IMG/VR virus record: IMGVR_UViG_3300027534_000005
Coordinates: 1 to 39,828 of that record
Length of the DNA stretch: 39,828 nt
Direction: 5' to 3' (one strand)
DNA from: a virus
The first letter of the stretch is position 1; each line of letters begins with the position of its first letter. Position numbers and translations under genes: made by a program. Positions 1 to 16,413 of this stretch are shown piece by piece. Under the pieces are notes generated by a model. It worked only from the letters and a program-made list of their open reading frames with translations, did no database searches and was not told where the DNA came from.

Positions 1-62
1 GGGTTGACCGCATTCAATTGGGTATCGATGACACATCCGATGAACTGAAAAAGCTTTCCTGA
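1..62 (+). CDS. 3' end of an unidentified phage gene (partial)
   Basis: One frame is open from the window edge to a TGA at 60-62 and reads ...VDRIQLGIDDTSDELKKLS. A ribosome-binding sequence (GAAAGGA) and the next ATG follow after 11 bases, the same spacing style as the rest of the block. Only about 19 residues are visible, so no function can be given. Confidence 0.5.
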   Translation, partial: VDRIQLGIDDTSDELKKLS

Positions 63-73
63 AAGGACACACA

Positions 74-466
74 ATGAAAGTGTACGTATACTTTAATCTA
101 CATCGCAAATGCTTTAGCATCAAAGCATTGGAAGGCCCGAACAAGGGTCGTGTTATTGCCCATCGCAACGAGGCACTGGTCTTCGATGCAACCTTCAAAG
201 TGTCCGAAGCTGGTCGTCAGCGTGTCCTTCGTGAGCGTAAAAAGAACGTTCATGCTGGTGTTGTCGGGTTTTGGATTGGTGCTGAGGATGGTGGTGACAG
301 AGCATCGATTGATCACATCGTCATGAACGGCACACCCATCACCTACAACCCATACAAATACGACAGCTTCGTCCACTTGTACGGTGAGCATCCGATCAAG
401 ACAGGTCGTCTTGTGGCACTGACTGTAAACGAGAACAAACGTTCTCACATTAACGTCTGGAATTGA
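74..466 (+). CDS. Hypothetical phage protein, 130 aa
   Basis: The ATG is preceded by GAAAGGA at a good distance. The protein is soluble, moderately basic and has no membrane segment or motif I recognise; the middle contains a Gly/Asp-rich stretch (IGAEDGGDRAS). It lies at the left of a series of small early genes. An antisense frame of similar length exists over the same bases but has no ribosome-binding site, so I take the plus frame as real. Function unknown. Confidence 0.75.
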   Translation: MKVYVYFNLHRKCFSIKALEGPNKGRVIAHRNEALVFDATFKVSEAGRQRVLRERKKNVHAGVVGFWIGAEDGGDRASIDHIVMNGTPITYNPYKYDSFVHLYGEHPIKTGRLVALTVNENKRSHINVWN

Positions 467-475
467 CAGCGCTTT

Positions 476-503
476 GTAATGCTATTGACCACAGTAGCAT
501 TAC
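476..503 (+). other. 9-bp stem-loop in an 88-base intergenic gap
   Basis: GTAATGCTA (476-484) pairs perfectly with TAGCATTAC (495-503) around a 10-nt loop. A further GACAG/CTGTC pair (465-469 with 511-515) could enclose it. No U-run follows, so it is not a classical terminator. It may be a leader, processing or mRNA-stability element for the gene at 555. Confidence 0.5.
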
Positions 504-554
504 TGACTCACTGTCGAGTTGTCGGACTAGCGTCCTTCTCCCATAGGAAACACA

Positions 555-731
555 ATGAAACTCATCACCAAGAAAAACGGCATCGAAATCTGGGCACAAT
601 TTGACCAGACAGCACAGGTCTATGAACTGTTCTTCGACAACGAAGGGCAGACATACACAGGCTGGGCTGTCGATTCCATCAAAGATGCACTGGCTGCATC
701 GACCTACATTATCCAAGAGCAACTATCCTGA
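555..731 (+). CDS. Small hypothetical protein, 58 aa
   Basis: ATG at 555 follows ATAGGAAACACA, a good ribosome-binding site. The frame reads MKLITKKNGIEIWAQFDQ... and ends with TGA at 729-731. The composition is that of a globular protein (aromatic-rich, acidic), with no recognisable domain. Spacing to the next gene is 11 bases and contains GAAAGGA, so it belongs to the same transcription unit. Confidence 0.7.
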   Translation: MKLITKKNGIEIWAQFDQTAQVYELFFDNEGQTYTGWAVDSIKDALAASTYIIQEQLS

Positions 732-742
732 AAGGAACTATC

Positions 743-1117
743 ATGGGCTTAGACATGTATGCATTCACTGTCCCTGCTGACAGTGTCGGTGATGGTGTCA
801 CTGATGTGGCACTGGGTGACAATGCTGTAGAGCTTTTCTATTGGCGCAAATTCAATGCTTTGCATGGTTGGATGGAACAGCTATACCGTAGCAAGAAAGG
901 CTTGCGAGTTGATTTCAATTGCACTACAGTGCGACTAACCAGTGAAGACCTAGACAGGCTTGAGCGTGAAGCAAGCACGTTGCAACCCATTGAAGGCTTC
1001 TTCTTTGGTGAGCAAACCATCTACCCCGAACAACTCGAAAGCGTAGCAACCTTCATTGCTAAAGCAAGACAGGCACTGGCTGATGGCAACGCTGTTTATT
1101 ATGATAGCTGGTGGTGA
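743..1117 (+). CDS. Conserved phage hypothetical protein (MGLDMYAF... type), 124 aa
   Basis: Start chosen at the ATG after TGAAAGGAACTATC. The opening MGLDMYAF and the central YWRKFNALHGWMEQLY resemble a family of phage hypothetical proteins that I recognise by this N-terminus but cannot assign a biochemical role. The C-terminus is aromatic (YYDSWW). It is followed after two bases by the next gene's ATG, which suggests translational coupling. Confidence 0.8.
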   Translation: MGLDMYAFTVPADSVGDGVTDVALGDNAVELFYWRKFNALHGWMEQLYRSKKGLRVDFNCTTVRLTSEDLDRLEREASTLQPIEGFFFGEQTIYPEQLESVATFIAKARQALADGNAVYYDSWW

Positions 1118-1119
1118 CT

Positions 1120-1305
1120 ATGAAAACATACACTGTAACAATTGTACGGTCTAGCTTTGTCACCATCACAGTTGATGCCGACAGCAAAGACGATGCTGAG
1201 GCACTGGCTTGGGACGAACAAGACCGTATGCAGTATGAATGGATTCCCTCTGATGAGTGGGAGACATACAGCGTTGATCAAACATTTGCAAGGGAAGAAG
1301 CATGA
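1120..1305 (+). CDS. Small hypothetical protein, 61 aa (possibly DpnD/PcfM-like)
   Basis: Start set at ATG 1120 (MKTYTVTIV), just after the upstream stop, rather than the GTG at 1111 that would overlap it. The alternating beta-type pattern followed by a DAEALAW helix resembles small DpnD/PcfM-type proteins; this is a weak resemblance only. The stop overlaps the next start in an ATGA. Confidence 0.65.
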   Translation: MKTYTVTIVRSSFVTITVDADSKDDAEALAWDEQDRMQYEWIPSDEWETYSVDQTFAREEA

Positions 1306-1592
1306 GCAAGACATTCACCATCACAATGTACAACGACCCCGGTCACGCTTGGGGCAAGGTCAAGCGAGAGGTGCTGGTCAACCTCGGCATTGCCGACAAG
1401 ATCAGCCGCTACAGCTACCAACGTGGCGACTATGCCTACCTCGAAGAAGACTGTGACCTGACCACCCTGTGCATGGCGCTGAATGAGCGAGACACACGAG
1501 TCAAGTTTGTTGAGAAGCGTAGCAACCGAGACAGCAAGATCAGATCTTATGAGAGGTACGAATATGGCTTCGGCAACATGGCCCTTTCCTGA
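1302..1592 (+). CDS. Hypothetical protein, 96 aa
   Basis: ATG overlaps the preceding stop (ATGA). The protein (MSKTFTITMYNDPGHAW...) is rich in charged and aromatic residues, with a basic C-terminal half containing RSNRDSKIRSYERYEYG. No motif is recognised. The competing minus-strand frame over 1,278-1,646 lacks a ribosome-binding site and is treated as a shadow. Confidence 0.7.
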   Translation: MSKTFTITMYNDPGHAWGKVKREVLVNLGIADKISRYSYQRGDYAYLEEDCDLTTLCMALNERDTRVKFVEKRSNRDSKIRSYERYEYGFGNMALS

Positions 1593-1668
1593 GTTCCCTA
1601 ACCCACTCGACAGTGGACATAAGCGTCCACCGTTCAACCCCAACAACCATGAGGATGCACCGCTATGA
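1564..1668 (+). CDS. Very small proline-rich hypothetical protein, 34 aa
   Basis: ATG 1564 is preceded by GAGAGGTACGAAT. The frame reads MASATWPFPEFPNPLDSGHKRPPFNPNN.. and its stop overlaps the next gene's ATG. It overlaps the previous gene by 29 bases. The coupling and ribosome-binding site support translation, but the length makes this only a moderate call. Confidence 0.5.
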   Translation: MASATWPFPEFPNPLDSGHKRPPFNPNNHEDAPL

Positions 1669-2000
1669 AAAAGAAAAAGCTTTTAATATCTGATGTGCTG
1701 CACTATGCTGCTGATCATTGCCTAGGTATCAAAGGCTCAACTGCACCCCTCAAGAACAAGTTCAGTTGTTCCGCTGTCATTGATGCCTATTTCATACACA
1801 ATGGGGCTGTTGATAAAGAGTTCCTTTTAGATGATGTTCTTACTGGTCTAGCAAACATGGGCTGTGATAGGAACTCACCAACGCTGTTCAGAAAACATGG
1901 CGACCCTGTTTTCTTTACCGAAACTGTTGAGTCTGTACAAGGCATGCGTTACATGTGGCTCAAGTGGGCAGCATTGATGGCAGAGGAACAGGGAGTGTGA
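1665..2000 (+). CDS. Hypothetical protein, 111 aa
   Basis: ATG overlaps the previous TGA. The lysine-rich start (MKKKKLLISDVLHYAADHCL) is not followed by a hydrophobic stretch long enough for a signal peptide. The rest is a mixed helical protein. No domain is recognised. It is directly followed by the SleB-type hydrolase gene, one base after its stop. Confidence 0.7.
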   Translation: MKKKKLLISDVLHYAADHCLGIKGSTAPLKNKFSCSAVIDAYFIHNGAVDKEFLLDDVLTGLANMGCDRNSPTLFRKHGDPVFFTETVESVQGMRYMWLKWAALMAEEQGV

Positions 2001-2001
2001 C

Positions 2002-2466
2002 ATGAGCATAACCCGACACATCCCCATCACCGTCTTCCTTGGTGCTTTGCTACTCAGCACAGCCTCTTGTGACCATGCACCGACACCGTCCCCTGCAGTG
2101 GCTTCAGAGTGGTGCTGCATGATGAAGAACATCTATCATGAAGCCCGTGGTGAGGGTGTGGCTGGTATGCAAGCTGTTGCTGCTGTGACACTGAACAGGG
2201 CAGCACAGGCCAACACCAGTGTCTGTGACGTGGTGTATGCTCGAAAGCAATTTAGCTGGGCCAACACATCGAAGGGTCGCAACAAACCAATGACGGGTGA
2301 CACCGCTGTGGTGTATGCTGTAGCAGCACAGGCTATGACAGGTGCTATGCAGGACATCACAGGTGGTGCTACCCACTACCACACGAAGAAGGTGAAACCA
2401 ATCTGGCGTAAGTCGCTGGACAAAATAGCTGTCATCAACAACCACATTTTTTATAGAAAGAACTGA
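2002..2466 (+). CDS. SleB-type cell wall hydrolase with lipoprotein signal, 154 aa
   Basis: Residues 1-23 form a lipoprotein signal (hydrophobic VFLGALLLSTAS followed by Cys, a lipobox-like LSTASC). The remainder matches the Hydrolase_2/SleB family: IYHEARGE with the probable catalytic Glu (about residue 47), GMQAVAAVTLNRA, the KQFSW box, and GATHYH..V.PIWRKS. Family members cleave peptidoglycan. The lipobox predicts membrane anchoring on the periplasmic face. It sits in the early block, far from the late lysis cassette with its own M15 endolysin, so it is more likely to have a role in entry, prophage state or envelope remodelling than in final lysis (inference). Confidence 0.85.
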   Translation: MSITRHIPITVFLGALLLSTASCDHAPTPSPAVASEWCCMMKNIYHEARGEGVAGMQAVAAVTLNRAAQANTSVCDVVYARKQFSWANTSKGRNKPMTGDTAVVYAVAAQAMTGAMQDITGGATHYHTKKVKPIWRKSLDKIAVINNHIFYRKN

Positions 2467-2467
2467 C

Positions 2468-2695
2468 ATGACTGATAACAATTTGCATGAAACGTCAATG
2501 GCTTCTGAGAAGCCAACACGTAGCCGAGGCCGTCCCTCATTTGCTGAGAAGGCTGAACCAACCCTGCGTGATACGTTCTCGCTGGAGATTATCAAAGGTG
2601 TTCTTGCCAGCGGTGCTGCTGTGTCAGACCCGCTAGAGCTTAGCCGCTATGCATACAAACTTGCTGATGCATTGGTGAAGGTGCGTGATGAATAA
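2468..2695 (+). CDS. Small hypothetical protein with AT-hook-like RGRP motif, 75 aa
   Basis: Begins one base after the preceding stop. Near residues 17-25 it reads TRSRGRPSF, similar to the GRP core of AT-hook DNA-binding peptides, followed by a helical C-terminal half. DNA binding is therefore possible but unproven. Confidence 0.65.
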   Translation: MTDNNLHETSMASEKPTRSRGRPSFAEKAEPTLRDTFSLEIIKGVLASGAAVSDPLELSRYAYKLADALVKVRDE

Positions 2696-2873
2696 TTCTG
2701 TACCATACACAATAGGTAGGCTTCATGGGTTTCGTAAGCAGCCAGCGTCACGTATGTTCATGACCGACACAAGCTGGGAAGCACAGCAATACAGACAAGG
2801 CTATATCGATGGTGGTGTGGCGCTACAAAACGATATAGACCGTGAAAAAACGTTAGGAAAACAAACATGTTGA
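2688..2873 (+). CDS. Small hypothetical protein, 61 aa
   Basis: Start set at ATG 2688, overlapping the previous gene's last codons; a GTG at 2685 is the alternative. The C-terminal half has a W..QQYRQGYIDG pattern often seen in short phage accessory proteins. Stop overlaps the next gene by 7 bases. Function unknown. Confidence 0.6.
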   Translation: MNNSVPYTIGRLHGFRKQPASRMFMTDTSWEAQQYRQGYIDGGVALQNDIDREKTLGKQTC

Positions 2874-3106
2874 GTGAAATTGATATAGCAGACTACGAAC
2901 AACTGCCCGTCCGTGAGTTGTACAAGGTGAAGCCTCGCAGCTACATCAAGCTACCGTGGATGGACGGTACAGGTATTGACGAGGTGGTATTCTTTGATCA
3001 CATCGACGGTATGTACAGCTACTGCCTGAACATGAACAACGAAGTGATACACCTGCAAGCATGGTCGGAGGTTGCACCGCTTGTGAAGAAAGCAAAGCCT
3101 GACTAA
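2867..3106 (+). CDS. Small hypothetical protein, 79 aa
   Basis: ATG at 2867 after GTTAGGAAAACAA. An acidic/aromatic small protein (MLSEIDIADYEQLPV...) with no recognised motif. It is the last gene before a 94-base gap that holds a consensus-like promoter, so it probably ends the first transcription unit. Confidence 0.7.
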   Translation: MLSEIDIADYEQLPVRELYKVKPRSYIKLPWMDGTGIDEVVFFDHIDGMYSYCLNMNNEVIHLQAWSEVAPLVKKAKPD

Positions 3107-3132
3107 ACTGTAGGGTTTTCTGGATGGTTTAT

Positions 3133-3162
3133 TTGACAAGCCATCTGGAAAGCCTTTACACT
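3133..3162 (+). promoter_or_regulatory. Sigma70-like promoter (TTGACA-18-TACACT)
   Basis: TTGACA (3133-3138) and TACACT (3157-3162) are separated by exactly 18 bases, placing a start near 3169, about 30 bases before the next ATG. The -35 box lies in the loop region of a possible hairpin (GATGG/CCATC), and GCCTT/AAGGC could pair around the -10 box. Confidence 0.7.
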
Positions 3163-3200
3163 GAAGGCCTCATCGACCACTTCCACAAAGGAACCTTGAA

Positions 3201-4037
3201 ATGAAACATGCCATCTATAGCCGTAGCCGCAGCGACCAAGCCCTGAGCATCGAAGAGATCCATCAACGTGCTCCTGCAGCATTCAGCGCAACCAAAGCCG
3301 ACCACCTTACTGATCGCTACGTGTCACTGACGACAGCATCAATCATCCCCGTCATGAAAGACTATGGCTTCGATGTTGTTCAAGCAGCACAGAAGCGTAG
3401 CCGCAAAGCAAACAGCGCTGATCATGGCACACACTTGTTGGCGTTTGCTGACACAACACAGAGCTTTGAAGACGGTACACGACCTGAGATTGTTTTGTAC
3501 AACTCAAACGATGGTAGCTCATCTGTGCGTTTGTTTGCTGGTGTCTATCGTATGATTTGCTCGAACGGTATCGTGGCTGGTGAAGGCTTTGAAAGCCGCA
3601 CATTCCACACTAAGAAGCTGCTCACCTTTGAAGACAACCTACGATACATCGTATCTACCCTGCCTACAATGATGGCTCGTGTTGAGAAGATGAAGCAGAT
3701 GAAACTCGACCACGACCAAGTGCATGACATGGCTGTGAAGGCTGTGGCTACACGATGGGACAGCTTCATGAATGATGCTAAGCGTGGTGTGTTTGCTACA
3801 GCATCGACAGTCAATGATGTGATGCGTCAACAACGTCTTGAGGATGTAGGGAATGACGCTTGGTTGGTCTTCAATAAGATGCAAGAGAACGTGGTGAGAG
3901 GTAATGCGTTTGTCCGTAGTATTACCGAGACACACCCCGAAGGTGTGATGCGAAAGGCACGACCAATCAACTCCATCAAAGAGGCGGTGCGAATCAACCG
4001 TGAGTTGTGGGATATTGCCGAAGCAGCTATTGCTTGA
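3201..4037 (+). CDS. DUF932-family protein, 278 aa
   Basis: The central region (LYNSNDGSSSVRLFAGVYRMICSNGIVAG) is the hallmark of DUF932, a family common on phages and plasmids with no established biochemical role. ATG follows AAAGGAACCTTGAA. It is the first gene behind a strong promoter, so probably expressed early. HNH cassette 1 starts within a few bases after its TGA stop (4035-4037), so the coding sequence appears intact. The C-terminal third is helical and basic. Confidence 0.85.
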   Translation: MKHAIYSRSRSDQALSIEEIHQRAPAAFSATKADHLTDRYVSLTTASIIPVMKDYGFDVVQAAQKRSRKANSADHGTHLLAFADTTQSFEDGTRPEIVLYNSNDGSSSVRLFAGVYRMICSNGIVAGEGFESRTFHTKKLLTFEDNLRYIVSTLPTMMARVEKMKQMKLDHDQVHDMAVKAVATRWDSFMNDAKRGVFATASTVNDVMRQQRLEDVGNDAWLVFNKMQENVVRGNAFVRSITETHPEGVMRKARPINSIKEAVRINRELWDIAEAAIA

Positions 4038-4042
4038 TGTTA

Positions 4043-4051
4043 TGATATAAC
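4043..4051 (+). promoter_or_regulatory. Extended -10-like box TGATATAAC
   Basis: TGA plus TATAAC (4046-4051) fits an extended -10 element (TGnTATAAT). No good -35 is seen at 17-19 bases. It is one of five such boxes in the window, all directly at the end of a gene. A start near 4058 would produce the structured RNA. Confidence 0.5.
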
Positions 4052-4057
4052 TTGTGA

Positions 4058-4175
4058 ACAGAAACGCTATAGCTCGTCCCTATTAGCGTTGACAGTAAAG
4101 CCTAGATAGGCTACCTATGCAGCAATGCAGAAGACAACGGACGAGGTTGTCTTGGTAGCCTACCTAGGCTTTTTT
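4058..4175 (+). ncRNA. Structured phage RNA with kissing loops, copy 1
   Basis: Hairpin P1: AACGCTA (4063-4069) with TAGCGTT (4084-4090), loop containing CTCGTCC (4073-4079). Linker GACAGTA. Long stem P2: 4098-4115 with 4154-4171, 17 of 18 positions paired. Inside P2 are P3, TGCA-GCAA-TGCA (4118-4129, a GNRA tetraloop), and P4, an 8-bp stem (4131-4138 with 4146-4153) whose whole 7-nt loop GGACGAG (4139-4145) is complementary to the P1 loop. P4 abuts P2 without a gap. Six Ts follow. The same architecture recurs at 8190. Function unknown; candidates are an attenuator for the HNH gene, an antitermination element or an independent small RNA. Confidence 0.8.
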
Positions 4176-4193
4176 GTTTACAGGTTGCAACAC

Positions 4194-4688
4194 ATGATCA
4201 CTAAGATATGTACTAAATGTGGAACTCAGAAGACCATTGATTGTTTTGGTAAGCAGAAGCACGGAAGACACGGAACCAAATCCGAGTGTAAAGTGTGTGC
4301 ATCGAATCGGACCAAAGCGTATCAGGCACAGAATAGAGAGTATGTCAGACGTTATCAACGTCAATACTCAAGTAGAAATAAAGATTCAATTGCTGACAAT
4401 AAAAAACAATGGCAACAGTTGAACACCTACAAAGTAAACTATTCATCTGCCAAACGAAGAGCAGCAAAGCGCAAGGCTACACCATCATGGGCCAGTATAG
4501 AACACATGGAAAGTCTTTATTTGATAGCTTCTCTTAACAGGGAACAAGGATATGACATACATGTAGATCATATTGTTCCGCTTCAAAGTGACATGGTGTG
4601 TGGTCTTCATTGTGAAGCCAACCTTCAACTGTTGTACGCAAAAGACAACATCGGAAAAAGCAACCGCCACTGGCCCGACATGTGGTAA
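4194..4688 (+). CDS. HNH endonuclease with N-terminal zinc finger, 164 aa
   Basis: Start set at ATG 4194 (MITKICTKCGTQKT), because an upstream ATG at 4125 would lie inside the RNA structure. The N-terminus has paired Cys motifs (CTKCG and CKVC, about residues 6-37) typical of a zinc-binding element; the middle is basic and helical. The C-terminus has the HNH core DIHVDHIVPLQSD followed by HCEANLQLL and KSNRHWPDMW. Related phage proteins are free-standing homing endonucleases that cut allelic sites to spread their own gene. A weak AGG lies upstream of the start. Paralogue of 8323-8862. Confidence 0.85.
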   Translation: MITKICTKCGTQKTIDCFGKQKHGRHGTKSECKVCASNRTKAYQAQNREYVRRYQRQYSSRNKDSIADNKKQWQQLNTYKVNYSSAKRRAAKRKATPSWASIEHMESLYLIASLNREQGYDIHVDHIVPLQSDMVCGLHCEANLQLLYAKDNIGKSNRHWPDMW

Positions 4689-4701
4689 CACAAGGAATAA
4701 T

Positions 4702-5526
4702 ATGCAGCACAACAACGCAATCGGTATGTTCATGGGACTCGCTATCGGTGACGGGCTTGGTGGGCCACTGGAGTTTACCGAACCAAACACAGGAACGCCT
4801 GTTCGTGAAATGATTGGTGGTGGTGTACACAATCTCGACATTGGTGAAACCACAGACGACACAGCTATGGCAATGGCTATCGCTGATGCATACATCTCAT
4901 ACAAACGCTTTGCACCCGGTGCAATTGCACAGAACTTCAAGCAATGGAGAAACAGTGGAACATTCGGCACTCGTAATTATTGTTTTGATATTGGAACTAC
5001 TACTGCTGAAGCGCTGAGTGCTTCGTCTAACAAGCGTCCCTTCGGTGGCTGTTGTTCGTTCATGACAGATGGTAACGGTGGCATCATGCGACTGGCTCCA
5101 CACATCCTGTTCAACCACAACAACAAGACAATGGCGATTGCTGACAGCGTAGCTGGTGGCCTCATCACTCACGGCACTGGTAACTGCGTAGCCTACAGCG
5201 CTGCACTGGCTGCTGAGTTGTTCGATGGTGTCACCGTTGGTGATCAAGCCCTGTTCGACAAGGGCATCAAAGAAGAAAGCGGCACAGTGATGGGGTGCTA
5301 TGCATCGGCATGGCAGTCTGTCTGTGCAACATCGTCCTTTGAAGACGCTGTTGTCCATGCCATCAACAAAGGTGGTGACGCTGACACAGTTGGTGCTGTG
5401 ACAGGTATGATTGCTGGTCGTTTGTATGGCTACGATGCCATCCCTCAACGCTGGCTTGACAAGTTGGTGCAGCATGACGAGTTGCTTGCTGTTGCACAAA
5501 AGCTTTATGCTATGGGAAACACATGA
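4702..5526 (+). CDS. ADP-ribosylglycohydrolase family protein, 274 aa
   Basis: Start at ATG 4702 after CAAGGAATAAT, 13 bases past the HNH stop. Family signatures are present in order: GMFMGLAIGDGLGGPLEF (residues 8-25), TDDTAMAMAIADAY (about 51-64) carrying metal-binding Thr-Asp-Asp, DGNGGIMRLAP (about 122-132) and GGDADTVGAVTG (about 222-233), the second metal-ligand motif. Family enzymes (DraG/ARH type) remove ADP-ribose from proteins or nucleic acids with Mg2+. In a phage this could reverse host ADP-ribosylation used in defence or undo the phage's own modification (inference); note the ADP-ribosyltransferase-like region in the giant virion protein. Confidence 0.88.
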   Translation: MQHNNAIGMFMGLAIGDGLGGPLEFTEPNTGTPVREMIGGGVHNLDIGETTDDTAMAMAIADAYISYKRFAPGAIAQNFKQWRNSGTFGTRNYCFDIGTTTAEALSASSNKRPFGGCCSFMTDGNGGIMRLAPHILFNHNNKTMAIADSVAGGLITHGTGNCVAYSAALAAELFDGVTVGDQALFDKGIKEESGTVMGCYASAWQSVCATSSFEDAVVHAINKGGDADTVGAVTGMIAGRLYGYDAIPQRWLDKLVQHDELLAVAQKLYAMGNT

Positions 5527-5729
5527 CGATTAGGCAAAGCAAAGATGGCACAGCCATCGTCGACACCGAATACTATTGGCAACCAATGGAGACATGCCCG
5601 AAGTCTGCGAAGGTGCAGCTACTCAGTGTGCATGGTGTTGCTGTGTACGGTGAGTATCACGGTAAGGAAACATTCTGGGTAGGGTGGGCACCTCTACCTA
5701 AGAAGCGAAAGGAAGAAAGCAATGATTGA
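5523..5729 (+). CDS. Conserved small phage protein, 68 aa
   Basis: ATG overlaps the previous TGA. The pattern YYWQPMETCPKSAKVQLLS..GVAVYGEYHG...GWAPLPKKRK, with a W-PMETCP opening and a GWAPLP end, is familiar from many phage small proteins related to DUF551-like sequences. No activity is known to me. Confidence 0.75.
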   Translation: MTIRQSKDGTAIVDTEYYWQPMETCPKSAKVQLLSVHGVAVYGEYHGKETFWVGWAPLPKKRKEESND

Positions 5730-5805
5730 CAAGCACATCTGTGGTGTCTGTGTTGCTCATTGTAAACAACGTATGCAATCTGTACAGAATGAGGAACAGA
5801 AATGA
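5722..5805 (+). CDS. Tiny Cys-rich protein, 27 aa
   Basis: ATG 5722 after GGAAGAAAGCA. The peptide reads MIDKHICGVCVAHCKQRMQS... with three cysteines (C..C...C) that could bind metal. Its TGA overlaps the next ATG. Start and stop fit the coupled pattern of neighbours, but so short an open frame may be chance. Confidence 0.45.
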   Translation: MIDKHICGVCVAHCKQRMQSVQNEEQK

Positions 5806-6041
5806 GAACCACTATCGAGATGGCACGTGAAGCTGCGGGTGATGACTGGGGATTGTTTCAGGAGTACATGCCTGAGATACACAGACTGGCAGAGCTTGTC
5901 CGTGCTGATGAGCGTGAGGCGTGTGCGAAGGTGTTGGATGAAATGGCAGAAGATATGGAGCGAGAGATGGAGCCGAGCACCGCAATCGCATATGTTCGTA
6001 GTAAAGCCGCAACTATCCGAGCAAGAGGAGAAACTAAATGA
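5802..6041 (+). CDS. Small phage protein, 79 aa (IEMAREA/RADEREACAKV family, copy 1)
   Basis: Coupled to the upstream stop. The layout TIEMAREAAGDD....LAELVRADEREACAKV....AIAYVRSKAATIRARGE is a helical protein type that is frequent in environmental phages, function unknown to me. A second copy lies at 6644-6856. Confidence 0.78.
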   Translation: MRTTIEMAREAAGDDWGLFQEYMPEIHRLAELVRADEREACAKVLDEMAEDMEREMEPSTAIAYVRSKAATIRARGETK

Positions 6042-6262
6042 GCAAACTGAAATCACTGACATTTGATGAGTACAAAGTAGCGGCCAAGGCCACACTGAAC
6101 GAGGCCGCTGACGAGGAGCCTGATGCTGTCATTGTGCTGATGTTCCACCGGGGGACGGGGCAATTCAAAATCAAATGCTCCAAGGTCGAGAACCGACTTG
6201 AACTTGTCGGCGCATTGGAAGAAGCAAAGAACCATGTATTGGTAACGGGGTACGCATCATGA
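6038..6262 (+). CDS. Small hypothetical protein, 74 aa
   Basis: ATG overlaps the preceding TGA (ATGA), with GAGGAG upstream. An alpha/beta small protein (FDEYKVAAKATLNEAADEEPDAVIVLMF...). No domain recognised. Part of a run of genes linked by four-base overlaps, so co-translated. Confidence 0.7.
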   Translation: MSKLKSLTFDEYKVAAKATLNEAADEEPDAVIVLMFHRGTGQFKIKCSKVENRLELVGALEEAKNHVLVTGYAS

Positions 6263-6471
6263 GCACATTCCAAATGAAAACCACAGAAGTCACCATCGAA
6301 ATGGATGGCTTGCACATCACAACAGTGACAGCACCAGACCACAAACCAAACGAAACAAGAGACCCTGACGAAGCCCAGATTGGCGACTTTCACATGAGCC
6401 TGTTCACGCTAGATGAGTGGGTGGAATTTTCGGGCTTGATCGAGAAAGCAATAAGGGAGGTCACCAAATGA
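6259..6471 (+). CDS. Small hypothetical protein, 70 aa
   Basis: ATGA overlap with its neighbour. The sequence alternates beta-like and charged segments (TTEVTIEMDGLHITTVTAPDHK) and ends in a helix. Nothing further can be said on function. Confidence 0.68.
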   Translation: MSTFQMKTTEVTIEMDGLHITTVTAPDHKPNETRDPDEAQIGDFHMSLFTLDEWVEFSGLIEKAIREVTK

Positions 6472-6647
6472 CAACACAAGACTGGCACGACATGAATAAA
6501 TTCTTGATGGACCTTCACTTCATCCAAGCAAACGCAATCGTTGGGGCAGAGTTGCAGGGCAACAAGCAAGCCATCAAATACATGAAACGAATTGCAGAGC
6601 TGCGTGAGCTAGTCAAGCTGGAAGCTGGAATCAAGGAGAACACATGA
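6468..6647 (+). CDS. Small helical hypothetical protein, 59 aa
   Basis: Start set at ATG 6468 because AAGGGAGG, a near-perfect ribosome-binding site, lies just upstream; an upstream in-frame start inside the previous gene lacks this. Helical (MKRIAELRELVKLEAGI). Function unknown. Confidence 0.68.
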   Translation: MTTQDWHDMNKFLMDLHFIQANAIVGAELQGNKQAIKYMKRIAELRELVKLEAGIKENT

Positions 6648-6856
6648 AGACCGTAATTGAAATGGCGCGGGAGGCTGGGTTGGTAGGTGGGCCGGTATAT
6701 GCGCGAGGACTTGAACGCTTTGCCGAGCTTATCCGTGCTGACGAGCGTGAGGCTTGTGCGAAGGTGTGTGAGGAAGTTGGCGAAGAATCCGACTCATTTA
6801 CACGAGACATTTTGCGTAGTACAGCCGCCGCCATCCGAGCAAGGGGCAACACATGA
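6644..6856 (+). CDS. Small phage protein, 70 aa (RADEREACAKV family, copy 2)
   Basis: Shares with the gene at 5802 the N-terminal IEMAREA, the central RADEREACAKV and the C-terminal AAIRARG, while other positions differ widely. The pair is a diverged duplication separated by three genes. AAGGAGAACAC precedes the ATG. Confidence 0.78.
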   Translation: MKTVIEMAREAGLVGGPVYARGLERFAELIRADEREACAKVCEEVGEESDSFTRDILRSTAAAIRARGNT

Positions 6857-6969
6857 GAGAGCTAGACCCCGACACATGGCTGATGCTTGGCATCACATGG
6901 TTCCACGGTCTGATGTGTGGCTATGCCATATGGCGACAGGACAAACGAAAGCCAATGGAGGACGAATGA
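6853..6969 (+). CDS. Single-pass membrane mini-protein, 38 aa
   Basis: ATGA overlap at the start, GAATGA overlap at the end. One hydrophobic stretch (WLMLGITWFHGLMCGYAIW) followed by basic residues (RQDKRKP) suggests an inner-membrane peptide. Role unknown. Confidence 0.55.
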   Translation: MRELDPDTWLMLGITWFHGLMCGYAIWRQDKRKPMEDE

Positions 6970-7091
6970 AAAGCCAAAAAGAATACACGATTGACTTTGA
7001 CACAAGCGGAGGATCGTCAGTCCTTGGTCGGCTCATTCGTCTGCTGATGTTTCCAATTGTTTGGGTGATGACAGGAAAGGCAAAGCTATGA
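6966..7091 (+). CDS. Small membrane-associated protein, 41 aa
   Basis: ATG at 6966 overlaps the previous TGA; its own stop overlaps the integrase ATG at 7088. The C-terminal half (LGRLIRLLMFPIVWVMTG) is hydrophobic with arginines, consistent with membrane association. Function unknown. Confidence 0.5.
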   Translation: MKSQKEYTIDFDTSGGSSVLGRLIRLLMFPIVWVMTGKAKL

Positions 7092-8182
7092 AACTAGCAC
7101 GTTACATGCAACACGTTGACCGCAACGGTGTAGTCTCTTACAAGTATGCACCACCCGCTGATGCTGTTGAAGCTGGTGTTGTCAAGCGTAAGGCATTGGG
7201 CACCAACCTTGTCGATGCCATCAACTATTGCAACGAACAGAACGATGTGCTTGATGAGTGGCGTAAGGAACATCGCTACCTGAAACACCTCACCACCAAG
7301 AGCACAGTGTTGGATCTGGTCAAGAGCTACATCAACTCCATCGACTACAGCAAGCTGTCACCCAAGAGCAAGGAAGACTATGTCTACTACCTCAAGCGTT
7401 GGGCAGGTGACAAAGCAACACACACTACGCTGTATGCCAGCAGGCTACAAGACCTGACAACACCATCTATGCAGCGCATCTATGACCTGCATGCTGCACA
7501 CAGCATTAGCTTGGCTAGTCATGTGCTGGCTGTCTATCGCTTGTTGTTTAGCTATGCCATCCGCAATGGCTTCACCACCTTCAATCCCTTCACTGCTGTG
7601 AAGAAACAAACAAGCAAGCCAAGGCGTGTGACATGGGAGAACGAACAAGTGAAGCAGTTCTTGACTGTTGCGTTTGAAAGCTTTGACACACGTAGCTTGG
7701 GACTGTTGGTGTATACAGCGTACTGTGCGGCGCAAAGGCTAGGCGACATGCGCCTACTCACTTGGTCAGACTACAACGTTGAGACAGGTGTGATGTCGCT
7801 GACACAGTCTAAGAGACGTGCTAAAGTTTCGATACCTCTGCCTCAAGATCTTCAACAGATGCTGAGACAACAACACAAAGAACTTAGCTGGCAACAGTAC
7901 ATGTTTCCTACGACACGCACTGTTGGTGGAGTATTGCAGCCATACAGCTTACAAGGATTGGCTAAGGCTGGTCGAGCGTTGATGGACAAGGCTGGACTAC
8001 CGAACGAGTTGCAATTGATGGACATGCGTCGAAGCGCAGTGACGGAGATGATCGGTGCTGGTGTTCCTTTGACAAACGTTATGGCCGTTACCGGGCATGC
8101 TACGCCTTCATCATTGACACCGTACATTAGACACACATTGAAGAGCGCCACTGTTGCACAGCAAATGCGTGGTATGATATAA
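7088..8182 (+). CDS. int: Tyrosine recombinase / integrase, 364 aa
   Basis: Start set at ATG 7088, overlapping the upstream stop. The N-terminal third is a SAM-like core-binding region (SYINSIDYSKLSPKSKEDYVYYLKRW). The catalytic domain shows Arg in AAQRLGDMRLLTW, Lys in TQSKRRAKVSIPL, the second Arg in LMDMRRSAVTEM (the usual HxxR His is replaced by Met), His in VTGHATPSSLTPYI, and the nucleophile Tyr nine residues later. Site-specific integration is the family role. No repressor, excisionase or attP core was recognised nearby, so lysogeny is possible but not shown. Its stop codon lies inside the TGATATAAC box of HNH cassette 2. Confidence 0.9.
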   Translation: MKLARYMQHVDRNGVVSYKYAPPADAVEAGVVKRKALGTNLVDAINYCNEQNDVLDEWRKEHRYLKHLTTKSTVLDLVKSYINSIDYSKLSPKSKEDYVYYLKRWAGDKATHTTLYASRLQDLTTPSMQRIYDLHAAHSISLASHVLAVYRLLFSYAIRNGFTTFNPFTAVKKQTSKPRRVTWENEQVKQFLTVAFESFDTRSLGLLVYTAYCAAQRLGDMRLLTWSDYNVETGVMSLTQSKRRAKVSIPLPQDLQQMLRQQHKELSWQQYMFPTTRTVGGVLQPYSLQGLAKAGRALMDKAGLPNELQLMDMRRSAVTEMIGAGVPLTNVMAVTGHATPSSLTPYIRHTLKSATVAQQMRGMI

Positions 8183-8183
8183 C
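8154..8183 (+). promoter_or_regulatory. Promoter TTGCAC-18-TATAAC with extended -10
   Basis: TTGCAC (8154-8159), 18-base spacer, TATAAC (8178-8183) preceded by TGA. It lies within the last codons of the integrase gene. A start near 8190 gives the second copy of the structured RNA. Confidence 0.65.
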
Positions 8184-8189
8184 TACAAA

Positions 8190-8306
8190 CAAAGATACTG
8201 CAACTCGCACTTGATAGTATCGACAGTGAAGCCTATTAAGGCTACCAATGCAGCAATGCAACGGACGATGTGCGAGATCGTTCGGGTAGTCTTAATAGGC
8301 TTTTTT
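8190..8306 (+). ncRNA. Structured phage RNA with kissing loops, copy 2
   Basis: P1: GATACT (8194-8199) with AGTATC (8216-8221), loop containing CTCGCAC (8204-8210). Linker GACAGTG. P2: 8229-8246 with 8285-8302, all 18 positions paired (one G-U). P3: TGCA-GCAA-TGCA (8249-8260). P4: 8 bp (8262-8269 with 8277-8284, one G-U), loop GTGCGAG (8270-8276), fully complementary to the P1 loop. P4 abuts P2. A six-T run follows (8301-8306). Helix lengths, junction spacers and loop size equal copy 1 while the paired bases differ in a compensatory way, which supports the fold strongly. Confidence 0.82.
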
Positions 8307-8322
8307 GTTTATAGGATTTGTT

Positions 8323-8862
8323 ATGCTGACAAAGGTGTGTACTAAGTGTGGTGTTGAGAAAAGTGTTGCTGAATACTACAAACATAAAGGTGGCAGATAT
8401 GGTGTTAGAGCATACTGTAAGATTTGTGACAACCAAAGATGTGCTCAACGCTATGAAGCCAACAGAGATGTTGAGCTTGAAAAAAGAAAATCTTGGTATG
8501 AAGCCAACAGAGAAACTCAACTTGAACAAAAGAAAGTTTATTATAAAGTTAACAAAAAGATTCTGATTGAAAAAAACAAGGCTTATTACAAAGCTAACCC
8601 GCACATAGGCACTGCCAAAAGTGCAAAACGAAGAGCAATAACACTTGATGCAACACCATCGTGGGCGAACAAAGAGCATATTGAAAGCCTTTACCTGATA
8701 GCCTCTATCAATAGACAAGGGGGTTATGATTTACATGTTGATCATATTGTTCCTCTTCAGAGTGACATTGTGTGTGGTCTGCATTGCGAGGCTAACCTTC
8801 AACTGTTGCCAGCAAGCGACAACCTTTCAAAAAGCAATCGCCACTGGCCCGACATGTGGTAA
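8323..8862 (+). CDS. HNH endonuclease with zinc finger, 179 aa
   Basis: Start set at ATG 8323 (MLTKVCTKCGVEKS), after ATAGGATTTGTT. Cys pairs CTKCG and CKIC form a likely zinc finger (residues 6-36). The middle holds three repeats of a Y-EANRE-type helical unit (about 45-90), which are fewer or absent in the paralogue at 4194. The C-terminal core is DLHVDHIVPLQSDIVCGLHCEANLQLL ending KSNRHWPDMW. Probable homing endonuclease. The middle region is more A/T-rich than surrounding genes, consistent with acquired DNA. Confidence 0.86.
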   Translation: MLTKVCTKCGVEKSVAEYYKHKGGRYGVRAYCKICDNQRCAQRYEANRDVELEKRKSWYEANRETQLEQKKVYYKVNKKILIEKNKAYYKANPHIGTAKSAKRRAITLDATPSWANKEHIESLYLIASINRQGGYDLHVDHIVPLQSDIVCGLHCEANLQLLPASDNLSKSNRHWPDMW

Positions 8863-8894
8863 ATTTCAAAGATCAACCAACCAAAGGAAATCAA

Positions 8895-9536
8895 ATGACA
8901 GTCAAACTTATCTGGGCAACACCAGACGCAGACAAACACATCGGCTATTGCGCCCGTGTCAGCAACCCCGGCAACCAAGACAACCCCAACGTGGCAGGGC
9001 TGCTGAAGTATTGTGCAAAGAATGCACACTGGTCTGTGTTTGAGATGGCTAGTGTGTGTCTTGAAGTGTCGACCACTCGCGACATTGCCCGACAACTATT
9101 GCGACACAGAAGCTTTAGCTTCCAAGAATTCTCTCAAAGATATGCTGACGCTACACAACTCGGTGACTTCGCTATTCGTGAATGCCGTTTGCAAGACGAC
9201 AAGAATCGACAGAACTCTTTAGAGACAGACGACTTCGACCTCACAGTGTGGTGGGCAGCAGCACAGGCTAGGATGATTGGTGAGGCTGAGTATTTGTACG
9301 GTGAAGCATTGAATCGTGGCATCGCCAAAGAACAAGCCCGTGCTCTGTTGCCTGAAGGGTTGACACCATCTAAGCTGTACGTCAACGGCACTATGCGTAG
9401 CTGGATTACATTCTTGCAAGCACGACTTGATCCGTCTACGCAGAAGGAACACAGGTTGGTGGCACAGGATGCACTGGCTGTGCTGCGTGGTGTTGCACCT
9501 GTGACAGTGTCTGCATTCTTTGGAGAACAATCATGA
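8895..9536 (+). CDS. thyX: Flavin-dependent thymidylate synthase ThyX, 213 aa
   Basis: ATG at 8895 follows CCAAAGGAAATCAA. The ThyX signature RHRSFSFQEFSQRY (about residues 73-86) is intact, and the length is close to the usual 210-250. ThyX methylates dUMP to dTMP using methylene-tetrahydrofolate, FAD and NADPH, raising dTTP supply during replication. Later ARALLPEGLTPSKLYVNGTMRSW matches the conserved C-terminal substrate-binding part. It works with NrdA/NrdB and MazG encoded further along the block. Its stop overlaps the next start. Confidence 0.95.
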   Translation: MTVKLIWATPDADKHIGYCARVSNPGNQDNPNVAGLLKYCAKNAHWSVFEMASVCLEVSTTRDIARQLLRHRSFSFQEFSQRYADATQLGDFAIRECRLQDDKNRQNSLETDDFDLTVWWAAAQARMIGEAEYLYGEALNRGIAKEQARALLPEGLTPSKLYVNGTMRSWITFLQARLDPSTQKEHRLVAQDALAVLRGVAPVTVSAFFGEQS

Positions 9537-9787
9537 CCTGCACCTGCCCTCCAACAAGCCCGTTCCTGTGGGCACAACATCCACGTCCATCCATCTTCGT
9601 TGACGACCCAGTCTTCAAAGCTAAGCATTCTGCTAAGACAGGCTCACAGCTGGCGACAGAGGTGGTGGAACGTAAGCGTAAGGACAACGTCAACTATGGC
9701 ACCATCTATGGCAGCGCTCGTGAACGTGAGGATGCCATCATCCGTAGCAAACTGATGCACATATACAGCAAGGCAGGTACGAAATGA
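9533..9787 (+). CDS. Hypothetical protein, 84 aa
   Basis: Coupled to thyX by an ATGA. The N-terminus is Cys/Pro-rich (MTCTCPPTSPF), and the C-terminal half is basic and helical (EVVERKRKDNVNYGTIYGSAREREDAI). No activity recognised; its fixed position behind thyX may mean joint expression only. Confidence 0.7.
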   Translation: MTCTCPPTSPFLWAQHPRPSIFVDDPVFKAKHSAKTGSQLATEVVERKRKDNVNYGTIYGSAREREDAIIRSKLMHIYSKAGTK

Positions 9788-10257
9788 AAGTGTTTCTCGG
9801 ACCCTATCAAGACGATAGCACCCCTCGACAAGAGGATGTGATGATTGACAAGTGGGATAGCTGGAATGCTGACCACACCATAGCCCTCATTGCTGCACCG
9901 CTGCTTCAACAACTGAAGCTGACCAAGCATGGCTCAGGTATGGTGGATGATGAGGACGTACCTGAAGAGTTGCGTAGTACGTCAGCACCACCAAAGGAAA
10001 ACGAATGGGACATTGATGCCAACCTACATAAGCGTTGGGATTGGGTGCTGGACGAGATGATCTGGGCTATGAAGGAACATGCCGATGGCACAGGCGATGA
10101 CAAGTTCTTTGATCACAGCGAAGTGAATGAAGAGGTTGACTTGTCTGAGCAGTGGTCACAGATCAAGTGTGACAGAGAAGGCTTGGAAGCTTACAACGCA
10201 CGTAAGCAGCGAGGCTTTGAGTTGTTCGGTAAATACTTTCAGAACTTGTGGGACTGA
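9784..10257 (+). CDS. Conserved phage hypothetical protein, 157 aa
   Basis: ATGA overlap at the start. The segment LHKRWDWVLDEMIWAMKEH (around residues 80-98) is a pattern I recognise from a widely distributed phage protein family without known function. The protein is strongly acidic. Confidence 0.75.
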   Translation: MKVFLGPYQDDSTPRQEDVMIDKWDSWNADHTIALIAAPLLQQLKLTKHGSGMVDDEDVPEELRSTSAPPKENEWDIDANLHKRWDWVLDEMIWAMKEHADGTGDDKFFDHSEVNEEVDLSEQWSQIKCDREGLEAYNARKQRGFELFGKYFQNLWD

Positions 10258-10258
10258 C

Positions 10259-10429
10259 ATGAACTACATTTTGATTACTAGAAATCCTAGAGGTAAAGGT
10301 ATTCTTACAATCACGACTGACGACGGAGATGTTGCTCAGTTTGAAACTGAAGAAGAAGCTGAAGCCTGTGCTGACCAGCAACCGTTGTGTCAGGCATGGG
10401 GCTACCAAGTTGTAGAACTGGAACTATGA
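10259..10429 (+). CDS. Small hypothetical protein, 56 aa
   Basis: ATG 10259, one base after the previous stop; longer in-frame starts would lie in the upstream gene. Reads MNYILITRNPRGKGILTITTDDG... with a beta-rich N-half and an acidic helix. Function unknown. Confidence 0.65.
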   Translation: MNYILITRNPRGKGILTITTDDGDVAQFETEEEAEACADQQPLCQAWGYQVVELEL

Positions 10430-10581
10430 CAATGAACATTGAACAAACCATTGTTGCCCTCACGGGCATAGGCTACCTCATCGTCGGCGTTCTTCAATGG
10501 TCCAAAGGCGAACTGAGCAACGGTATGATCTGGACAGGCTATGCGTTTGCTCAGGTTGGGTTGTGGCTTAACATCAAATAA
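10426..10581 (+). CDS. Small membrane protein, 51 aa
   Basis: ATG 10426 overlaps the prior stop; ATG 10432 is an alternative. Two hydrophobic stretches (IVALTGIGYLIVGVLQW and MIWTGYAFAQVGLWL) separated by a short polar turn suggest a two-pass hairpin in the inner membrane. Role unknown. Confidence 0.6.
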   Translation: MTMNIEQTIVALTGIGYLIVGVLQWSKGELSNGMIWTGYAFAQVGLWLNIK

Positions 10582-10583
10582 CT

Positions 10584-12209
10584 ATGGCATTCATTCGCAC
10601 ACACATAAGCTGTGAACACTGCGGTAGTAGTGATGGTGCATCGCTCAACGACGACCACTCCACCTACTGCTTCGTGTGTAGCACACACACACCCTCTTCC
10701 GAAAACATCACCACAGAAAGACAACACATGACTGAAGTAGTCAAACCAAAAGACATGAGCTTCATCAAACGATACAACAACGGAGTAGCCGTTAGTATCA
10801 GTGAGCGTAGACTAACCAAGACCACCGTTGAAAAGTATGGTGTAGTTAGAGATGGTGACAGCTATCTGTTCCCCTACTTCGACGACACTGGATCGTTGGT
10901 GGCTGCTAAGATTCGCAACGTCAAGGACAAGATCTTCAGCACTGAAGGCGACTGGAAAGCTGGCACCTTATTTGGTCAACATCTGTTCTCCAAAGGTGGT
11001 AAGACAATCACTATCGTTGAAGGTGAAGCTGATGCTCTCGCTGCATTTCAGATGATCGGTGCTGGTAAGTACCCTGTTGTTTCGATTCGTAATGGCGCAG
11101 GCTCTGCAGTCAAGGATGTCAAGGCACAGTATGAATACCTCGACAGTTTTGAAACCATCGTCATTTGTTTTGACAACGATGAGCCGGGACGCAAGGCAGC
11201 TAAGGAAGTTGCTGACATCTTCGGTAGCAAAGCAAAGATTGTCAAGCATGATCCAGCTTTCAAAGACGCATGTGACTACCTAGCCGAAAGTAAAGAGCAG
11301 TTGTTCATTAGTCGCTGGTGGTCCAGTGAGCAATATACTCCCGATGGTTTGATCAATGGTGACAGCCTATGGGATGAGCTTAAGAAGCCACGTCAAAAGC
11401 CTGATGCACACTGGCCCTACACTACCCTTGACGGTATGCTTTGTGGCCTACGTAAGCGTGAGCTTGTCACTGTTGCAGCAGGTACGGGTCAGGGTAAGAG
11501 TACGTTCTTGCGACAGATCATTCACCACTTGTTGATGACGACAGACGACAAGATTGGCTGCGCCTTCCTTGAAGAATCACCATCGCGCACAGCACAAGGC
11601 ATCATGTCCATTGAAGCAATGAAGGCTTTGCATCTGCCAACAACAGAGTACACAGAGCAAGAGTTGCGTGATGCTTTTGAGAAGACAATGGGTACTGGTC
11701 GTGTGACAATGTTCTCTCACTTTGGTAGCCTTGACATTGATAACGTCATTGCCCGACTGCGTTGGATGGCAAAGGGTATGGGGTGTAGCTGGATCATTCT
11801 TGACCACTACCAAATGATCTTGTCTGGTATGGATACCGATGAACGCAAAGGCTTGGACATGCTGCTGACAAAGCTTCGTACATTCGTTGAAGAGACTGGT
11901 GTTGGTTTGTTCGGTGTGTCGCATACTCGACGTGAGTCAGGTAGCAAGGGTGCTGAGAACGGTGCAGAGATGACGCTGTCTTCGCTGCGTGGTACAGCAG
12001 GTATTGCTCAGTTGTCTGACGCTGTGATCGGATTGCAGCGTGACCAACAACATGATGACGAGCGAGTGCGTAACACCACCTGTGTCAGATTGTTGAAGTC
12101 ACGATTCACAGGTGAGACAGGACCAGCAGGCTTTTTGTTGTTCAACAAAGACATGCAACGCCTTATCGAGATTGATGATCCCACACCAGACGAACAGGAC
12201 ATACTATGA
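10584..12209 (+). CDS. Primase-helicase (T7 gp4/Twinkle type), 541 aa
   Basis: Cys10/Cys13 and Cys29/Cys32 form a zinc-binding primase module. A TOPRIM fold follows, with ITIVEGEADALAAF (about 138-152) and TIVICFDNDEPGRKAA (about 191-206). The RecA-like helicase domain has Walker A AAGTGQGKSTFLRQ (about 297-310) and Walker B WIILDHYQMIL (about 402-412), then SHTRRES and SLRGTAGIAQLSDAVIGLQRD. It would unwind the fork and lay primers, partnering the split DNA polymerase encoded 1 kb downstream. The length is close to T7 gp4. The start is set by MAFIRTHISCEHC directly before the zinc motif. Confidence 0.93.
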   Translation: MAFIRTHISCEHCGSSDGASLNDDHSTYCFVCSTHTPSSENITTERQHMTEVVKPKDMSFIKRYNNGVAVSISERRLTKTTVEKYGVVRDGDSYLFPYFDDTGSLVAAKIRNVKDKIFSTEGDWKAGTLFGQHLFSKGGKTITIVEGEADALAAFQMIGAGKYPVVSIRNGAGSAVKDVKAQYEYLDSFETIVICFDNDEPGRKAAKEVADIFGSKAKIVKHDPAFKDACDYLAESKEQLFISRWWSSEQYTPDGLINGDSLWDELKKPRQKPDAHWPYTTLDGMLCGLRKRELVTVAAGTGQGKSTFLRQIIHHLLMTTDDKIGCAFLEESPSRTAQGIMSIEAMKALHLPTTEYTEQELRDAFEKTMGTGRVTMFSHFGSLDIDNVIARLRWMAKGMGCSWIILDHYQMILSGMDTDERKGLDMLLTKLRTFVEETGVGLFGVSHTRRESGSKGAENGAEMTLSSLRGTAGIAQLSDAVIGLQRDQQHDDERVRNTTCVRLLKSRFTGETGPAGFLLFNKDMQRLIEIDDPTPDEQDIL

Positions 12210-12379
12210 AGACAATCAAAATGTTAGTTGAGTTGACCTATGACAATGACACAATGCATGAAGACGATGCTGATGGTATTGCTTGGTTCAATGATGAGGT
12301 CTTAGGTGGTGAACTAGTTGCGTGGTCTAACGAGATAGGCGATGAACTTGGTTTCATCAAAGTATTGGAGATACTATGA
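12206..12379 (+). CDS. Small acidic protein, 57 aa
   Basis: ATG overlaps the helicase stop (ATGA). The sequence (MKTIKMLVELTYDNDTMHEDDADGIAWF...) is acidic and beta-rich, and resembles small phage proteins found beside replication genes. Unknown role. Confidence 0.68.
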   Translation: MKTIKMLVELTYDNDTMHEDDADGIAWFNDEVLGGELVAWSNEIGDELGFIKVLEIL

Positions 12380-12525
12380 GCGATGTAGAACGTTATTGGG
12401 AAGCCATACGAAAGCGATGGCCCCATCCAACACCAAGCTATCAACAGCTTGACCCAATGGAACAGATGATGTTGGTTAACTCGATCAACATCTTGTTGCA
12501 AATCTTAAACAACCGGAGAGCGTGA
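12376..12525 (+). CDS. Small hypothetical protein, 49 aa
   Basis: ATGA overlap at the start. The composition (YWEAIRKRWPHPTPSYQQLDPMEQMMLVNSINILLQIL) suggests a helical peptide with a nonpolar C-terminus. No recognisable domain. Confidence 0.65.
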   Translation: MSDVERYWEAIRKRWPHPTPSYQQLDPMEQMMLVNSINILLQILNNRRA

Positions 12526-12659
12526 TGAAAACTTACAAAGAACTTGAGCGTGAAGCTTACATGGCAGGCAACACAGAACTGGCAAAGCTCTATGCTGAGC
12601 TTGATGACATTGACCGTGCTGTCAAAGCCTACGAAGATCTGAGGGATAACCATGAGTGA
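12525..12659 (+). CDS. Small helical protein, 44 aa
   Basis: ATG shares one base with the previous TGA (TGATG). Highly helical and charged (KELEREAYMAGNTELAKLYAELDDIDRAVKAYEDL). Possibly a coiled-coil. Function unknown. Confidence 0.62.
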   Translation: MKTYKELEREAYMAGNTELAKLYAELDDIDRAVKAYEDLRDNHE

Positions 12660-15963: not shown

Positions 15964-15985
15964 ATTTAAATCAAAGGAAACTCAA

Positions 15986-16396: not shown

Positions 16397-16413
16397 TACT
16401 TAAAGGAAATACT

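Follow-up and report, generated by a model that had tools for sequence, protein, structure and literature searches.

What is the RNA that a 39.8-kb IMG/VR phage record encodes twice, each time ahead of an HNH endonuclease gene, and does it act as a two-state switch, as a sequence-only reading of the locus had proposed? The window, meaning the whole 39,828-nucleotide stretch analysed here, carries copy 1 at about 4058–4176 and copy 2 at 8188–8307 (region 8170–8320). The features of both copies are as follows.

4041–4051, plus strand: TATGATATAAC, extended −10-like candidate promoter of copy 1 (TGn before TATGAT / TATAAC), conserved in position
4063–4090, plus strand: P1 hairpin of copy 1, 10 bp with one bulge (MFE fold; double-sided changes)
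4073–4079, plus strand: P1 loop CUCGUCC, kissing strand 1, perfect complement of 4139–4145
4097–4115, plus strand: P2 5′ arm of copy 1, including the self-complementary AGCCTAGATAGGCT at 4099–4112
4118–4129, plus strand: P3 hairpin TGCAGCAATGCA of copy 1 (MFE fold; pair-change counts)
4131–4153, plus strand: P4 hairpin of copy 1, 8 bp (MFE fold; double-sided changes at 8/8 pairs)
4139–4145, plus strand: P4 loop GGACGAG, kissing strand 2 (complementarity to the P1 loop)
4154–4172, plus strand: P2 3′ arm of copy 1, including the self-complementary AGCCTACCTAGGCT at 4157–4170; scored as a compact terminator-like site
4170–4175, plus strand: terminator-like U-run after P2 of copy 1 (GGCTT[T/C]TTTGTTT block in 12/12)
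4194–4688, plus strand: HNH endonuclease gene 1, 164 aa (PHROG 1035, PHROG 26577, invariant block)
8173–8183, plus strand: TATGATATAAC, −10-like element of copy 2, the TAA of which doubles as the stop codon of the integrase ORF 7061–8182
8194–8221, plus strand: P1 hairpin of copy 2, loop CUCGCAC at 8204–8210 (fold; kiss analysis)
8228–8246, plus strand: P2 5′ arm of copy 2, including AGCCTATTAAGGCT at 8230–8243
8249–8260, plus strand: P3 hairpin of copy 2 (fold)
8262–8284, plus strand: P4 hairpin of copy 2, loop GUGCGAG at 8270–8276 (fold; kiss analysis)
8285–8306, plus strand: P2 3′ arm (8285–8303) and U-run (8301–8306) of copy 2 (sequence; folding)
8323–8862, plus strand: HNH endonuclease gene 2, 179 aa (HNH block; profile matches)

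Homologues were sought by scanning viral contigs for patterns and for HNH proteins, and with two covariance models, R1 and R2. Twelve close copies were found in ten records: two in the window, two in L001 (the second read in L176, the same contig) and one each in L002, L003, L004, L179, L180, L181, L182 and L380. Six of these (both copies of L001, and those of L002, L003, L004 and L380) were located first by RNA patterns alone. Given the ten source records to search, R2 recovered all 12 copies; among loci outside L123–L169, to which its coverage ran, it gave seven strong matches in 95 HNH loci and, in 98 control loci, two matches at E up to 1 (best, 0.032). Minus-strand model matches mirrored the plus-strand ones, owing to the palindromic stem. 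An Rfam 15 gathering scan of the window and a relaxed scan of 4000–4230 returned no family for the RNA, the weak matches, to microRNA, plastid or sRNA families, falling far short of the gathering scores, and a literature search with most subscription journals outside its coverage found no description of it. Searches by blastn with the copy 1 region, window positions 1–20000 and several more distant elements yielded no useful named-phage relative; the exceptions were a short match of the L292 flank to MW202520, a match of L338 to MW202484 (75.5%) and matches to the HNH gene of L326. As a structure and as a cassette, the RNA is supported as a new conserved module of HNH cassettes; its function we infer.

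The architecture comprises P1 (10 bp), P2 (19 positions), P3 (4) and P4 (8), with a 7-bp kissing contact between the P1 and P4 loops, the latter of which sits inside a three-way-junction, terminator-like hairpin. Against shuffled sequences the whole fold stands at z = −6.75 for copy 1 and −8.21 for copy 2 (0 of 200 shuffles each). Across the 12 sequences, 97% of 572 cells are paired and 26 of 48 pairs show double-sided changes, including eight of ten in P1 and every pair in P4; sliding the whole structure as a control gave at most nine such pairs. The kissing contact, to which the sequence-only reading had given the part of favouring one state, is real and strongly covarying, and is the strongest result of this analysis. 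It forms in all 12 sequences (84 of 84 cells paired), and four of its seven pairs have changed on both sides. The loops take seven distinct sequences, with double changes in 18 cells versus 5.3 in shuffles, and their covariation is 0.597, whereas shuffling gave 0.160 (0 of 500) and sliding no more than 0.100. Because the kissing sequences vary freely while pairing is kept, shape is the conserved property. P2 ends in GGCU and runs into UUUUUUG, a U-run preceded by a G+C-containing hairpin, with six Us at 4170–4175 and 8301–8306 just as had been noticed from the letters; the U-run contains a C in L182 and L380. P2 and the U-run together form a putative intrinsic terminator.

The next gene encodes an HNH protein in all 12 close copies, including the six first found by RNA patterns alone, and its start lies 11–16 nt beyond the GTTT that follows the U-run in every case. 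The product of gene 1 in the window matches PHROG 1035 ('endonuclease VII', 3.6 × 10⁻²³) and also PHROG 26577, and Pfam HNH matched the window proteins only below its cut-off. The HNH proteins share an invariant VDHIVPL...NLQL..N..K.NR block, and their matches are to endonuclease-type or unknown families, plus a Lar-like profile at low score. Near-identical RNAs stand before unrelated HNH types in L182 and L176b, the latter protein containing HNH_3 and an AP2-like part. Occupied and empty versions of a site, as in a homing cassette, occur among relatives: in L004, the promoter-like element, RNA and HNH gene lie exactly where L001 and the window show an ATGA overlap of neighbouring genes, and in L002 the cassette directly follows a stop codon, at a place left empty in the window and L003. 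The unit that differs between sites consists of the promoter-like element, the RNA, the HNH gene and a short ribosome-site stretch. Copy 1 of the window begins directly after the DUF932 stop, and the −10 element of copy 2 takes in the integrase stop. From these comparisons of sites, the RNA appears to move with HNH homing genes as one cassette.

At the DUF932/ADP-ribosylglycohydrolase site (L176:2395–3057), the HNH gene behind the RNA is of one type in the window and of another in L176, indicating that one site has turned over its nuclease. Separately, we considered a leader peptide encoded by ORF 4125–4688, which is in frame with the HNH gene of copy 1, and rejected it: an extra base in L002 shifts the frame from the same ATG, and the equivalent frame in copy 2 is out of frame with its HNH gene.

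Upstream of the RNA, TATAAC or TATACC is found at the same place in all 12 close copies, and the promoter-like motif is enriched in the window. A −10-like element ends 5–16 nt upstream of P1 in each of 22 scored RNAs (12 close and ten distant); the scan always returns a best site, and at P < 0.05 it outscored shuffled sequences for 17 of the 22, made up of ten close copies and seven distant elements, with copy 1 at P = 0.053 when TATGAT was taken as the best −10. A consensus promoter scan of the plus strand at 3900–4800 and 8000–9000, which needs a −35 and does not call an extended −10 alone, called none. Judged by its position and sequence, the element would be a promoter from which transcription begins immediately upstream of P1. 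Elsewhere in the window, the promoter-like motif of the copies has a single near match, TGTGGTATAACTA at 14814–14826, which falls between the end of the DNA polymerase gene (14810) and the next ORF (14832).

The reading that we favour, at a rough probability of 0.55, is a braced attenuator or small-RNA unit that would hold homing-endonuclease expression low. It builds on four things that sequence comparison establishes (RNA structure, kiss, cassette and neighbouring HNH gene) and envisages a self-contained expression module that would be part of the HNH homing-endonuclease cassette. The −10-like promoter would start the transcript just before P1; during transcription P1 would form, followed by the 5′ arm of P2 as a small hairpin and then by P3 and P4, and the P4 loop would kiss the P1 loop through 7 bp. 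The emerging 3′ arm would strand-displace the 5′ hairpin, and P2 would zip from the junction to the U-run; the resulting intrinsic terminator would be braced by a P1–kiss–P4 rod. The palindromic arms would be a relay, holding the 5′ arm transiently. Most transcripts would end as an RNA of about 115 nt, and the HNH gene would be expressed from leak-through only; the RNA set free in this way may also have an action of its own. Two considerations weigh against attenuation: a terminator between promoter and HNH gene fits only if leak-through is useful, and it would be polar on downstream genes.

A stand-alone phage small RNA gene is a possible reading at clearly lower odds. The promoter, a pseudoknotted RNA of about 115 nt and the terminator would then be complete in themselves; the RNA would act in trans by its shape, or would merely be very stable, with the HNH gene as hitchhiker or partner. 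The −10-like element upstream of P1 in all 22 RNAs and the variable but always paired kiss agree with this, as do more distant relatives. At least ten distant elements (L057, L172, L326, L237, L257, L269, L292, L329, L338 and L356) have a 5′ hairpin, a 7- to 14-nt kiss into a terminator-like stem, and a U-run; further kisses of 7 and 8 nt occur in L011 (with L012 and L013) and MW202484. Most were fetched by terminator patterns (TAGGCTTTTTTG or GGCTTTTTTGTTT), so the U-run is present by construction but the kiss is not, and the P values of the distant kisses combine to 1.6 × 10⁻⁸, or 2 × 10⁻⁶ for seven lineages. L057 scores E = 1.7 × 10⁻⁵ in the model and most of the others 0.003 to 0.3; the source of L237 was an inspection of HNH leaders, not the model. 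We argue for homology from architecture and weak model scores, which fall short of proving shared descent.

An HNH-type gene lies downstream in L172 (Pfam HNH), L326 (NUMOD4), L237 and L011; the last two were fetched through HNH searches, leaving L172 and L326 as the cases unbiased for an HNH neighbour. No HNH gene was recognised after the other seven of the ten elements (L057, L257, L269, L292, L329, L338 and L356), the L292 record ending soon after the RNA, and a stand-alone function therefore fits those seven better. Against it stand the constant HNH neighbour of the close family, at its narrow spacing from the U-run motif, and the distant set, in which inspection found no conserved unpaired seed.

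Less probable again is silencing of the I-TevI kind, in which an outer stem, P0 (CUAUAGAC with GUUUAUAG), would hide the AGG before the HNH start. P0 would form only in transcripts begun upstream, internal-promoter transcripts lacking it, and this mode is compatible with the braced attenuator. Full pairing is seen in six of the 12 close copies and pairing at seven of eight positions in three more, with double-sided change at two positions; the 5′ strand and the end of the −10 element overlap, and T4 I-TevI offers a precedent (PMC3014915). P0 is, however, broken in L176b, L181 and L180. On account of these three breaks, and of a 5′ strand that lies within the promoter, we rejected P0 as part of the core RNA and kept it as a rival for read-through transcripts. 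An automatic helix finder took P0 for P2 in copy 1, L002, L003 and L004, chose another 7-mer for L001 and returned no helix for L182 and L380; the kisses of the misread close copies come from a separate reading.

The two-state switch starts from a genuine property of the arms. Both P2 arms are self-complementary in both copies (5 bp, 4-nt loop), with the sequences and coordinates originally given for copy 1, and they can pair instead with each other in a stem of 19 positions, of which 18 are paired in copy 1 and all in copy 2. Folded alone, the 5′ arms (4099–4112 and 8230–8243) reach about −6 kcal/mol, and the 3′ arms −5.6 (4157–4170, copy 1) and −3.5 kcal/mol (8288–8301, copy 2). When the order of stacked pairs was permuted in 4,000 trials that kept the P2 duplex, the share in which both arms folded as well as the real ones was 0.13% for copy 1 and 0.32% for copy 2; the arm-shuffle test took in seven of the 12 close copies and four distant elements, and its L237 row is rough, with a 3′ arm shorter than the real one. 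Arm self-complementarity is thus non-random within the family, but it represents one inherited event and not independent evidence from each homologue. With eleven sequences tallied together and L180, which has indels, read separately, the 5′ hairpin retains every pair in all 12 close homologues and the 3′ hairpin in 11; the exception is L176b, in which a G–G breaks both the 3′ hairpin and an arm–arm pair.

The sequence-only reading went on to propose that the RNA chooses between two terminator configurations, two local hairpins or one long stem, and so controls read-through into the HNH gene. The beyond-chance arms speak for this, as does the freezing of the dual-use pairs of P2 (double-sided change in 0 of 10, versus three of four middle pairs, in 11 sequences without L180). 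In L180, bases gained in both arms keep and lengthen both local hairpins and P2, with double-sided changes at some dual-use columns in the alignment of the model. Of the five P2 pairs that belong to neither hairpin, however, three to four are just as frozen; the dual-use freezing is therefore explained equally well by constraint at the stem base and junction. In an energy model that leaves out the kiss, forced two-hairpin folds came to −34.5 and −32.1 kcal/mol for copies 1 and 2, versus −51.8 and −51.3 for the P2 form, that is, 17.3 and 19.2 kcal/mol worse. Co-transcriptional folding predictions, the check suggested at the outset, placed the 5′ hairpin at a probability of 0.80–0.96 until the 3′ arm started to emerge and at 0 afterwards, whereas the 3′ hairpin stood at 0.00 at all 22 prefix lengths printed per copy and P2 rose to 0.92 and 1.00.

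In a terminator/antiterminator switch, the RNA adopts either of two folds that exclude each other, and in one of them the terminator hairpin is lost. The present RNA resembles such riboswitches in that alternative pairings precede a U-run ahead of a gene, but differs in that both alternatives are terminator hairpins; neither fold abolishes the terminator, and no antiterminator was found. Because the same GGCU hairpin precedes the same Us in both forms, the model contains no read-through state. The alternative pairing is kept in 11–12 of the 12 close copies and is absent from most distant relatives, among which L172, L326, L237, L257, L292 and L329 form the arm–arm duplex from arms that lack self-complementarity, the very pattern that had been named in advance as telling against a switch; their homology is by architecture, not by sequence. 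The distant arm duplexes span 18–23 bp, yet the arms alone give 0 to −4.6 (5′) and 0 to −2.7 kcal/mol (3′), with L057 a partial exception (5′ arm −4.6, P = 0.018) and the 5′ arm of L269 also at −4.6. The self-complementary arms, the kiss and a 5′ hairpin intermediate therefore survive from the switch proposal, and the choice between two end states does not; we consider the switch improbable. The self-complementarity of the 5′ arm is most likely that of a transient hairpin, later strand-displaced, and so a folding step. A tentative extension of the braced attenuator is that these RNAs represent a new phage small RNA class, in which a promoter-proximal hairpin would kiss the inside of its own terminator; unrelated HNH homing endonucleases would have adopted it repeatedly as a control part, and the 5′ arm palindrome would be a folding chaperone timing P2 closure and hence termination.

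HEARO is an RNA-guided system, and the HEARO/OMEGA RNAs of IsrB and IscB likewise adjoin an HNH-domain gene in a mobile unit. That the RNA is a cofactor or guide of this kind is very unlikely: it does travel with HNH genes, but it matches neither HEARO nor any other Rfam family and is indifferent to HNH type, standing near-identical before unrelated ones, and the window proteins are small (164 and 179 aa), have the endonuclease-type, unknown or low-scoring Lar-like matches given above, and show no RuvC match in PHROGs or Pfam, so that we see neither a described HNH-associated RNA family nor a RuvC-like plus HNH effector.

Parallels come from the homing-endonuclease leaders of T4 and Aeh1 (PMC3014915, PMC2988022). 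In T4 mobE and segF, intrinsic terminators lie towards the 5′ end of the coding region, and about 30% termination is given for mobE (PMC2988022); RNA structures are shown or implicated in lowering translation of T4 I-TevI, Aeh1 mobE and T4 segB (PMC3014915, PMC2988022). As is proposed here, a structured 5′ RNA, an intrinsic terminator or both limit the endonuclease in those systems, and an internal promoter lies within the structure (PMC3014915, PMC2988022). Those leaders are simple hairpins that cover the ribosome site, or else terminators within the coding sequence; here, a putative terminator with a kissing loop and a three-way junction separates the promoter from the gene and is common to unrelated HNH types. 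On our reading, and by analogy, the present RNA would do similar work with a different architecture. T4-type hairpins are the main source of knowledge on how a selfish homing gene keeps its nuclease within limits that the phage can bear; if several HNH types reuse it, a conserved, sequence-variable terminator braced by a kissing loop would be a general control part. It would also offer a clean natural system for measuring the influence of tertiary contacts and transient hairpins on termination, and it supplies an RNA family that Rfam lacks.

Several further observations concern other elements. Within the window, a short tandem repeat of TAGGCTGAG units occupies 31260–31320, inside a 1,775-aa minus-strand ORF. 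A shared, non-coding-looking block (AACCGTCAGGGCGCGTTAGCTAATGG...) follows the RNA in L338:1300–1747, L269, L257:8140–8497, L329 and MW202484.1:33511–34157; it occurs in varied genomic settings, for example just before a 280-aa ORF in L338 and L269, and may be a second mobile RNA element. In L237:5840–6000, a 14-bp and a 7-bp long-range pairing (by eye) join the 5′ part to the inside of the terminator-like stem, and an HNH gene follows. Other HNH relatives have different structured leaders (L204, L253, L208, L227, L235, L226 and L242; L008, L014, L017 and L019), which had no Rfam match in the records scanned. These leaders comprise a closing stem, a GGG..CCC hairpin and a second hairpin, often followed by UAACCA, with a TAAAAT- or TATAAT-like site immediately upstream; by eye, the second loop of L227 (CCUUAAC) pairs with GUUAAGG over the ribosome site.
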